Assembly: GCF_003342675.1 (NCBI RefSeq)
Contig: NZ_CP031148.1
Coordinates: forward strand, 248,001-312,000
Length of the DNA stretch: 64,000 bases
Reading direction: 5' to 3'
DNA from: Haloplanus rubicundus
GTDB taxonomy: Archaea > Halobacteriota > Halobacteria > Halobacteriales > Haloferacaceae
Positions within the stretch are counted from its first letter, which is position 1; each line of letters starts with the position of its first letter. Under the pieces are notes generated by a model, which worked only from the letters and a program-made list of their open reading frames with translations, did not search any database and had not been told where the DNA came from. Both the position numbers and the translations under genes were made by a program. Below, one piece after another: positions 54,159 to 58,255 of this stretch.

Positions 54159-54197
54159 ATGACCGCGACCGTCGGTCGACGGGAGGTGCGGACGTGA
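54159..54197 (+). other. Possible 12-codon leader ORF coupled to the next membrane gene
   Basis: ATG at 54159 opens MTATVGRREVRT and ends in a TGA that overlaps the GTG at 54194 (GTGA). A weak AT-rich CATTTCCATAG lies ~28 bases before the ATG. Confidence 0.3.
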
Positions 54198-54892
54198 GCG
54201 AAGCCTACGACCCGCTCGCGCGGGTCCGTCGGCTCCTCCTCGCGGAGACGGCCGCCATCCGGTGGTGGAGTCTCGTCCTCGCCGCCGAACTCGCCCTCGT
54301 CACCGCGTACCTCGCCGTCACCCCGACTGTGACCGTTGTCGAACCTCGCTACGTCGTGTATCCGTTCCTCTGGATCAACGTCGGTGTGTGGGCGATGATT
54401 CGGACGAAGACGCCGAGTGTCGACCGTCGGCAGTGGGCCGTGGCAACCGCAGTAGCCGTCGGCTATCTGCTGGTCCTGTTCGTCGCGGCCGGCACCCTCC
54501 AACTCGGGATCAGCGAACCGCTCAACGGTGGTGCGGTTGCCTCGATTCACTGGAACATTCCCGGGTTGGGTCCAATCGTCGTCTACGGCACTCCGCGGAT
54601 CCGCCTCTCGATCATTCCGTTCAAAGTGGTGGGCTACGTCGCCATGACCTACCTCGTCTACGCCCGCCTGCTCGACGCGACGCGGGCGGTGCTCTCGGGC
54701 GTCCTCGGTCTCGTCTCCTGTGTCGGCTGTACGTTCTCCATCCTCCTCCCCCTGCTCGGCGCCACCGCGCTGTTCGGGTCGACGCTAACCGGCCTCGCCT
54801 GGGACCTCTCGACTGCCGTCTTCCTGCTCACCGTCGCCCTCCTCTACTGGGCGGACGAGGTGGGCGTCGCCGTCTCGCGGCGGCTTCCCTAA
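54194..54892 (+). CDS. Six-helix haloarchaeal membrane protein (DUF7546-like)
   Basis: 232 residues starting from GTG. Hydrophobic segments at about 25-43, 48-67, 80-100, 130-160, 163-190 and 200-222. LGLVSCVGCTFSILLPLLGA with a CxxC in the fifth helix is distinctive; it might bind metal or form a disulfide. I recall similar proteins as DUF7546 but cannot verify. Its last 108 bases overlap the tail of the convergent SAMP-GNAT gene. Confidence 0.7.
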   Translation: MSEAYDPLARVRRLLLAETAAIRWWSLVLAAELALVTAYLAVTPTVTVVEPRYVVYPFLWINVGVWAMIRTKTPSVDRRQWAVATAVAVGYLLVLFVAAGTLQLGISEPLNGGAVASIHWNIPGLGPIVVYGTPRIRLSIIPFKVVGYVAMTYLVYARLLDATRAVLSGVLGLVSCVGCTFSILLPLLGATALFGSTLTGLAWDLSTAVFLLTVALLYWADEVGVAVSRRLP

Positions 54893-55471
54893 CGTCCCGC
54901 GGAGCCGACCGTCGCCGTCCCCGACCGCCTCGATGTCGAACCCCAGCGACTCGTAGAACGGACGCACGTCGGGGTCGAACGCGGCGACGAGGCAGCTGCG
55001 CGTCTCCAGGGCCGCGGCGATCAGCGCGCTCCCGACCCCCCGGTCGCGGTGGCGGCGCCGGGTCGCCACGGCGGTCACCCGGTCGCCGTCGCGGACGAGG
55101 GCGCCGACGGGGCGGCCGTCCACTATCGCCACCAGCACCTCGTCGTCGTCGATTCGCTCGCGCACCGTCGCCGCGTCGACGGCGAGCATCGCGCCGTCCA
55201 GAATTCGCATTACGTCGAGGTGATCGGCCGCGTCGGCAGCGCGAATCCGGATCGACCGTCGATCCGGTGCGCCCCCTTTCACCAGGCGGAGGACGCGCAC
55301 CCGATCCGCGTCGACCGGACGGTCCTCGGGGACGGGCGCGTCGTCGACGAGGACCGTCGCCTCGTGGGAGCTGAATCCGAGGGCGGCGAGCACGTCGCCG
55401 TAGGTGGCGTCGGACGCGAGGTCGACCTCCTCGACACCCTCGCCGACCACCTCGGCGCGGACCGTGGGCAT
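54785..55471 (-). CDS. SAMP2-like ubiquitin-fold domain fused to a GNAT acetyltransferase
   Basis: 228 residues in one uninterrupted frame. Residues 1-67 match small archaeal modifier protein SAMP2: VRAEVVGEGVEEVDLASDAT, HEATVLVDDAPVPED, and the end DRVRVLRLVKGG with the diglycine at 66-67 (codons 55271-55276). The frame continues at once into APDRRSIRIRAADAADHLDV, a GNAT domain with RHRDRGVGSALI (acetyl-CoA loop) and FDPDVRPFYESLGF. SAMP2 is normally a free ~66-residue protein whose terminal GG is activated by UbaA. A linear fusion would need cleavage after GG, as in ubiquitin precursors, to act as a modifier or as sulfur carrier for tRNA thiolation. The last ~34 residues are a low-complexity acidic tail overlapping the convergent gene. 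Confidence 0.85.
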   Translation of the reverse strand: MPTVRAEVVGEGVEEVDLASDATYGDVLAALGFSSHEATVLVDDAPVPEDRPVDADRVRVLRLVKGGAPDRRSIRIRAADAADHLDVMRILDGAMLAVDAATVRERIDDDEVLVAIVDGRPVGALVRDGDRVTAVATRRRHRDRGVGSALIAAALETRSCLVAAFDPDVRPFYESLGFDIEAVGDGDGRLRGTLGKPPRDGDAHLVRPVEEGDGEQEDGSREVPGEAG

Positions 55472-55549
55472 GGCTGGGGGAAGTCGGGCGAGGGGCCTGA
55501 ACCTTCGGATCGGCGCGCGAGTTTTGCCCGTCGAGCCGTACGGTCGGGT

Positions 55550-56678: not shown

Positions 56679-56900
56679 ATGGGACTGTTGAACACGATTA
56701 CGGACACCCTGAAGGCCTCGTCCTCGTCTTCGAACCGGGGGAGCGGCGCGGGCGAGTCGAAGGGCGCGTACTGGTGTCACGACTGTAGTGAACGGATTCT
56801 CGACACCGACGTCGAGGGCGACGACGCGCCGACGTGTCCGGCCTGTGGCGACGAGATGGAGTTCGAGCGCTCGCCCGGATCGACCGGGTGTGCCTGTTAG
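56679..56900 (+). CDS. Zinc-ribbon protein, 73 aa
   Basis: N-terminal Ser-rich helix (MGLLNTITDTLKASSSSSNR) then WCHDCSERILDTDV and CPACGDEMEFERSP, two CxxC knuckles of a zinc ribbon, ending GCAC. A TATA-like CTTTACC (about 56649-56655) is ~28 bases upstream. Its TAG and the stop of the convergent CobW-like gene share TTAG at 56897-56900. Function unknown. Confidence 0.75.
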   Translation: MGLLNTITDTLKASSSSSNRGSGAGESKGAYWCHDCSERILDTDVEGDDAPTCPACGDEMEFERSPGSTGCAC

Positions 56901-58156
56901 GGCTCGGTCACGACCAGTTCCTCGCCCGCCTCGGTCGGAAACGCGTTCCCGAAGCCGTCCCAGTCGGCCGCCATCTCGTCGTCGGTGAGCAGACAGTCGT
57001 CGAGCGCCGCGATCAGCGCGTCGTCGTCCATCCCCCGGCCGATGAAGACGAGTTCCGTCCGCCGATCACCCCACTCCTCGTCCCACTCCAGGTTCGAGCG
57101 GTTGCGCCGGTAGGCGTCCTGTTCGAACTCGGGGAGGCTGGCGATCCAGGGGCCGGCGACCTCCACCCGAACCGAGGGGCCAGCCTGCCCCATCGTGTAG
57201 GAGCAGTCGGCACCGGTGGCGATCCAGCAGGTGCCCTTCGAGCGGACGACTGCGGGGGGCAGGTCGGCGAGCAGGGAGCGGAGTCGGGCGGGATGGAACG
57301 GGCGCCGGCGACGGTAGGTGAAGGAGGTGACGCCGTAGACGGCCTCGGGGTGGGCGTGGGCGTCGTGGTCGTGTGCGTGGTCGGCGTGGTCGTGTGCGTG
57401 GTCGGCGTGGTCGTGCGCGTGGTCGTCGTCGTGGTCGTCCCCCTCCAGCGCCCGCTTCCACCCCGCCTCGTCGGCGGTGGCGGGGTCGTACCGTCGTTCG
57501 AGGACGACGCCCGGATCGACCCGGCTGTGTTCGGTGCGGACCACCTCGGCGTCGGGGCGGAGCGCCCGCACCATCTCCTCGACGGCGTCGAGTTCGTCGG
57601 GTGTCACGAGGTCCGTCTTGTTGAGGACGACGAGGTTCGCGAACTCGACGCCCTCGACGAGGAGGTCGGAGAGGGGGCGGGTGTCGTCGTCGCCGGTGCC
57701 ACGGCGGGCTGCGACCCCCTCGTCGCCGAAGGCGTCGTGGAACTGGCGGGCGTCGACGACGGAGACGACAGAGGCCACGTCGTAGCGGGCGGCGGCTTGC
57801 GACCCCGTGGTGAAGAGGCGAGCGACGGGCCGGGGTTCGGAGATGCCCGACGCCTCGACGACGAGGTGGTCGAAGCCCCGTTCCCGGGCGAGGCGGACGA
57901 CGGCGGTTTCGAGGTCGTCCCGGAGTTCACAGCAGATACAGCCGTTCGAGAGTTCGGCCACGCCGCCGTCGACGGCGAGGTCCGTGTTCCCGCTCACGAG
58001 GTCGGCGTCGACGTTGATGTCGCCCATGTCGTTGACGAGGACGGCGATGTCGCGGTCGCCCGCCCCGGCGAGGAGGTGGTTGAGCAGCGTCGTCTTGCCG
58101 GCGCCGAGGCTCCCGCTCAGGATGGTGACGGGGATGGCGTCGCGGTCGCGAGACAT
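56897..58156 (-). CDS. CobW/COG0523 metal-trafficking GTPase with His-rich segment
   Basis: 419-residue G3E GTPase that delivers a metal, most often zinc, to client proteins. Walker A GSLGAGKT (15-22), the metal-binding CxCC at 73-76 in NGCICCELRDDL, NKTDL as the guanine motif. Between the GTPase and C-terminal CobW_C domains lies a His/Asp/Ala-rich stretch (about 244-273) built from three 21-base repeats, a likely zinc reservoir. The C-terminal domain includes RSKGTCWIATGAD. The znu operon in this window is the natural partner pathway; direct interaction is inference. The start MSRDRDAIPVTILSG is chosen over an in-frame upstream ATG. Confidence 0.88.
   Translation of the reverse strand: MSRDRDAIPVTILSGSLGAGKTTLLNHLLAGAGDRDIAVLVNDMGDINVDADLVSGNTDLAVDGGVAELSNGCICCELRDDLETAVVRLARERGFDHLVVEASGISEPRPVARLFTTGSQAAARYDVASVVSVVDARQFHDAFGDEGVAARRGTGDDDTRPLSDLLVEGVEFANLVVLNKTDLVTPDELDAVEEMVRALRPDAEVVRTEHSRVDPGVVLERRYDPATADEAGWKRALEGDDHDDDHAHDHADHAHDHADHAHDHDAHAHPEAVYGVTSFTYRRRRPFHPARLRSLLADLPPAVVRSKGTCWIATGADCSYTMGQAGPSVRVEVAGPWIASLPEFEQDAYRRNRSNLEWDEEWGDRRTELVFIGRGMDDDALIAALDDCLLTDDEMAADWDGFGNAFPTEAGEELVVTEP
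57365..57427. repeat. Three tandem 21-base repeats in the His-rich region
   Basis: Units at 57365, 57386 and 57407, first two identical (GTGGTCGTGTGCGTGGTCGG plus C), third with two changes; on the minus strand they encode ADHAHDH-type heptads. Confidence 0.85.
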
Positions 58157-58255
58157 GGGTGAGGACAGGGCGTCGACGCCCCTTAACCCCGCGGACGTGC
58201 GCCGGCGACGGGCGACCGACGACACGCTTTTGCCCACGCCGCGGGGAAACGGGGC

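Follow-up and report, generated by a model that had tools for sequence, protein, structure and literature searches.

A SAMP2 modifier encoded head to tail with a GNAT acetyltransferase in Haloplanus: a probable natural precursor for the desampylase JAMM1

SAMPs are commonly described as free small proteins with a GG end. In a gene of Haloplanus rubicundus, the GG of SAMP2 is not the C-terminus of the protein, since 161 residues come after it, and the locus raises the question of how such a modifier could be set free. The gene lies on a contig of 3.4 Mb, in a genome of three contigs that total 3.77 Mb, within a stretch of 64,000 nucleotides (hereafter the window). An earlier note on this DNA had read residues 1-67, ending LRLVKGG, as SAMP2-like, and had seen no stop between them and a GNAT domain in the same frame starting within five residues. 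The SAMP2 part indeed scores above the thresholds of PF21965 (84.9 bits, cut-off 27) and of the NCBIfam equivalog NF041919 (95.7 bits, cut-off 70) over residues 4-67, and the minus strand holds one ORF without internal stop that joins both domains, though about seven residues rather than five separate the GG from the GNAT part. The features of the locus are the following.

55496..55507, minus strand: promoter-like element, CGAAGGTTCAGG, almost unchanged throughout the genus and placed 25-36 nt before the ATG of SAMP2.
54785..55471, minus strand: SAMP2-GNAT fusion gene, 228 aa plus stop, with an orthologous fusion in 12/12 Haloplanus genomes.
55271..55471, minus strand: SAMP2 domain (beta-grasp, ubiquitin-like), residues 1-67, with the SAMP2 structures 2l32 and 4hrs in the PDB and AF2 pLDDT of ~85-94.
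55271..55279, minus strand: K65-G66-G67, with the predicted cleavage point after G67; unchanged in 12/12 Haloplanus, the codons differing only synonymously; pLDDT < 50 at 66-68.
55250..55270, minus strand: linker APDRRSI, without in-frame ATG, GTG or TTG up to the GNAT core, its length and sequence differing across species.
54887..55249, minus strand: GNAT acetyltransferase domain (residues ~75-195), which includes the acetyl-CoA motif R142-x-x-G145-x-G147 (PF13508, PF13673, PF00583; motif; Foldseek).
54788..54886, minus strand: C-terminal read-through tail, residues 196-228, in full in 2/12 Haloplanus; pLDDT < 50 at 198-215.

The spacing of CGAAGGTTCAGG to the SAMP2 ATG fits a leaderless transcript and backs the choice of start codon, and from its position and conservation the element is taken as a putative promoter. 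The GNAT part matches PF13508 (36.7 bits, cut-off 27) over residues 109-179, with the GNAT fold starting at about residue 75. Its R142xxG145xG147, invariant in the Haloplanus fusions, fits the GNAT acetyl-CoA motif Q/R-x-x-G-x-G/A, and its Foldseek matches are GNATs such as 3bln and Ard1 4pv6; a search for a close characterised homologue of this part found none. AlphaFold2 gives two confident domains; its confidence drops below 50 at the GG and the residue after it, and again in the C-terminal tail. This tail is probably without function: the last 33 residues of the protein were considered as part of the GNAT and rejected, being antisense to a neighbouring gene and missing in most relatives. 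The overlap, of ~105 nt (54788-54892), is with the DUF7546 membrane-protein gene at 54194-54892 of the plus strand; the full tail occurs in the host species and in G005 only, and most other Haloplanus fusions end before the DUF7546 gene. Elsewhere in the window, positions 56900-58252 of the minus strand hold a gene for a CobW/HypB-type GTPase with a His-rich stretch (HDHAHDHADHAH), likely a metal chaperone.

Within the genus, the fusion runs uninterrupted through the junction in 12/12 genomes, and in each of them a profile search finds it as the sole SAMP2, always above the equivalog cut-off. A second free SAMP2, which the earlier note had named as a finding that would speak against its reading, was sought in the present genome by profile search and none was found; a weak SAMP2 match (L002) was rejected as a second copy, being MoaD-like and without a GG end. 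The codons of G66 differ among the 12 genomes by synonymous changes only (GGG in 6, GGC in 4, GGA and GGT in 1 each), the residue right after the GG is variously A, D, T, G or S, and the distance from the GG to the first GNAT helix ranges from 16 to 25 residues. In 6/12 species, the host included, no in-frame start codon (ATG, GTG or TTG) occurs between the GG and the GNAT core, so that in these species an independent translation start is impossible and the GNAT could be produced only as a fusion. Among other Ubl proteins of this genome (L247, L248, L250, L251), ends of the type ...VSGGRQ, ...VAGGA and ...MRGGTR are seen, and one of its Ubl proteins has a CC end, as does the arCOG00539 family of PMC2948915.

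The same genome encodes what the maturation and use of a SAMP would call for, namely a JAMM1 (NF041370, 191.9 bits, cut-off 130) with an intact JAMM metal motif HSHP...PSATD, and a UbaA (NF047750, 525 bits, cut-off 450). It also encodes, on a contig of 225 kb, a protein of 788 aa that combines E1 (ThiF) and JAB domains (G000:C1:48051-49172; L045, L052), scores 1205 bits with the PADLOC E1-E2 model and resembles Ubl-type anti-phage defence proteins. As for published precedent, an engineered linear SAMP1-MoaE fusion is cut after the GG by HvJAMM1 both in vivo and in vitro, the cut making the fusion functional, and deletion of the GG leaves no detectable cleavage in vivo (PMC4443979). Against this stands in vitro work, summarised in PMC8832034, where HvJAMM1 cut linear fusions without requiring the diglycine. 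Natural substrates are also on record, with SAMP precursors of C. subterraneum cleaved by CsJAMM (PMC6043591) and a Deinococcus MoaD-MoaE cut by DRJAMM (PMC8832034).

These systems resemble the Haloplanus gene to different degrees. The Ubl-MoaE proteins (DR2607 with DRJAMM, PMC8832034; SAMP1-MoaE with HvJAMM1, PMC4443979) are likewise prokaryotic chains of a beta-grasp domain, a GG and an enzyme released by a JAMM protease, but their partner is an enzyme of the Ubl's own pathway, whereas SAMP2 is joined to a GNAT or a peroxiredoxin-like protein. The ubiquitin and SAMP precursors of Caldiarchaeum subterraneum are archaeal too, and their residues past the GG are trimmed by CsRpn11 or CsJAMM (PMC6043591); CsUb-pre differs in carrying a 9-residue tail rather than a folded enzyme and belongs to a different lineage. 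On the eukaryotic side, the fusions of ubiquitin or FUBI to ribosomal proteins (UBA52, RPS27A, FAU) also place a Ubl-GG head to tail with an unrelated protein and are cut after the GG (PMC11354881), but by other proteases, whereas in Haloplanus the partner is an acetyltransferase and the Ubl a ThiS-type SAMP2.

A survey of fused versus split genes, which the earlier note had proposed, placed the locus in a wider frame. SAMP2 and GNAT are separate genes lying close together in most other haloarchaea, usually adjacent, and this neighbourhood (arCOG00535-arCOG04721) was already listed in Table 1 of PMC2948915 by Makarova and Koonin; the text of that paper gives the two as neighbours, and a GNAT fusion was not found in it. 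The GG is retained in all 181 genomes surveyed: the gene stops right there in 78 of them and runs on into a short tail in 77, and in the rest a GNAT (15) or a peroxiredoxin-like domain (11) follows. In other words, SAMP2 genes run past the GG in 103/181 genomes, and the GG as C-terminus does not define the family at the level of the gene. In these 77 the short tails span 2-25 residues, as against 1-25 among tailed SAMP2 genes overall, and nearly all SAMP2 genes of the genus g14 carry one; some of them (L183, L188, L194, L206, L211) resemble expanding short repeats such as ATDGGA, ATDGDATDGGA and AEGGPAEGG. On a tree of SAMP2 plus GNAT, which is a gene tree and not a species tree, the GNAT fusion state changes four times (Haloplanus, two members of g14, and G047), with weak support for some of the branches concerned. 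The AhpC/TSA-type peroxiredoxin-like domain, found after the same SAMP2 GG in Halorussus and several other genera, also shows four changes on the tree; in such fusions (L106, L104, L109, L184, L127, L205, from Halorussus and others) a GNAT gene lies next downstream. No report of either a SAMP2-GNAT or a SAMP2-peroxiredoxin fusion was found in the open-licence literature.

If it takes the desampylase to remove residues past the GG, genomes without JAMM1 are predicted to have no extended SAMP2. With JAMM1 scored by NF041370 and called absent when no match reached E <= 1e-6, none of the 58 JAMM1-minus genomes, which span 19 genera, had an extended SAMP2 (58 stop, 0 extended), as compared with 105 extended and 73 stop among the JAMM1-plus ones (236 genomes scored for both traits). 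Fisher's test over all genomes gives p = 1e-18, a value inflated by relatedness, and at the level of genera the counts of stop and extended are 19/0 against 29/23 (p = 1.5e-4). The pattern was first noticed in family f1, which was searched completely (12/0 without JAMM1, 44/95 with it, G004 set aside), and was then tested outside f1 on samples with JAMM1-minus genomes picked deliberately, where it held at 46/0 against 29/10 (p = 2e-4). Among the newly read genomes of that outside set, all 44 JAMM1-minus ones end at the GG, the status of 32 of them being read from absence in a list of matches, and 10/36 JAMM1-plus ones are extended. A Pagel-type model favours dependent over independent evolution of the two traits (LR 31.2, p = 3e-6); in its fit, extensions are hardly ever gained where JAMM1 is absent and JAMM1 is hardly ever lost where SAMP2 is extended, both rates coming out near zero. 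An independent-pairs test offers only 4-6 informative pairs, too few for significance, and none of them contradicts the pattern. SAMP1 behaves alike, being extended in 0/21 genomes without JAMM1 and in 7/24 with it (p = 0.01). A single genome seems to break the rule, the 79% complete G004 of Haloplanus, in which the fusion is present and a JAMM1 match is missing, most likely because of an assembly gap; the fused G047, 78% complete, was left out of the JAMM1 scoring. Altogether, the comparison suggests that joined or tailed SAMPs occur only with JAMM1 present. Many complete haloarchaeal genomes have kept their SAMPs but have no JAMM1 (g10, g20, g22 and g24 in f1, and 15 genera outside), and the tree shows about 15 changes between its presence and absence.

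Several observations point in one direction: how the gene is built and conserved, its being the only SAMP2 copy, the repeated origin of fusions and their co-occurrence with JAMM1. We infer from the sequences that the gene very probably encodes a naturally occurring SAMP2 precursor for maturation by JAMM1; the cut itself and the activity of either product are predicted on the same grounds. The processing after the GG by a JAMM-type desampylase that the earlier note had predicted finds strong comparative support in the invariant GG, the freely varying residues downstream, the co-occurrence with JAMM1 and the published precedent. In such a scheme, one leaderless message would yield a SAMP2-GG-GNAT polypeptide, which JAMM1, the orthologue of HvJAMM1, would cut past the second glycine. 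UbaA would then adenylate the freed SAMP2-GG, for attachment to lysines and also for tRNA thiolation as happens in Haloferax, whose SAMP2 is important both in sampylation and in the thiolation of tRNA-Lys(UUU) (PMC4048286). The GNAT would be set free as an enzyme of its own, in the same amount as SAMP2. The fusion itself may have originated when the SAMP2 stop codon was lost in an ancestral operon with the GNAT gene just downstream, a change that could be tolerated because JAMM1 would trim whatever comes after the GG.

An improbable alternative, also contemplated in the earlier note, is that SAMP2 is never cut off and serves the acetyltransferase for regulation or docking, without conjugation, the GG being a relic. 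The linker would suit two folded domains in one chain, and Ubl domains are fused elsewhere, as in the Ubl-Cgi121 of Thaumarchaeota (PMC2948915, silent on its cleavage); a relic, however, is hard to reconcile with an internal GG that admits synonymous change only, in the sole SAMP2 of a genome with an intact UbaA. Nor would a permanently attached domain account for unrelated partners and short dissimilar tails following the same GG, or for extended forms never occurring without JAMM1 in 58 JAMM1-minus genomes. This last pattern also bears on whether the fusion is cleaved mainly by another protease (JAMM2, the proteasome or an unknown one), the co-occurrence with JAMM1 reflecting lineage history. 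The genomes do hold further JAMM-family proteins, Haloferax work links JAMM2 with the recycling of SAMP2 (PMC4895103) and the strict pairs test is underpowered, but the lack of extended forms across 19 genera, repeated outside f1 and with SAMP1, leaves this reading a slim chance.

It counts against the precursor reading that JAMM1 also takes off conjugated SAMPs, so that its presence has another reason. A sequencing error or frameshift masking a stop codon after the GG, raised in the earlier note as a possible refutation and made conceivable by the run of G bases at the junction, is excluded for practical purposes by the same open frame in 12 independently assembled species.

As for why these partners are joined, the conserved neighbourhood and the repeated fusion suggest that the GNAT is functionally tied to SAMP2, although equal dosage or mere tolerance of stop-codon loss would also account for the fusions. 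The link between acetylation and sampylation put forward in the earlier note stays a proposal that draws on the conserved gene neighbourhood. Mild oxidants induce SAMP2 conjugation and delta-samp2 cells are oxidant-sensitive (PMC5587910), which makes the peroxiredoxin-like partner suggestive. On a broader and more tentative view, possible but rather doubtful at present, JAMM1 might be the general maturation protease of haloarchaeal SAMPs, many of them made as precursors, with one cleavage freeing both the modifier and a stress or acetylation enzyme and desampylase activity setting both.

The occurrence of extensions only alongside the desampylase would give JAMM1 a testable second job, maturation besides deconjugation, and the SAMP2 fusions would offer an archaeal parallel to ubiquitin precursors. 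Moreover, the pattern may explain which lineages could lose JAMM1, and the GNAT and peroxiredoxin-like partners hint at the functions that evolution ties to SAMP2.
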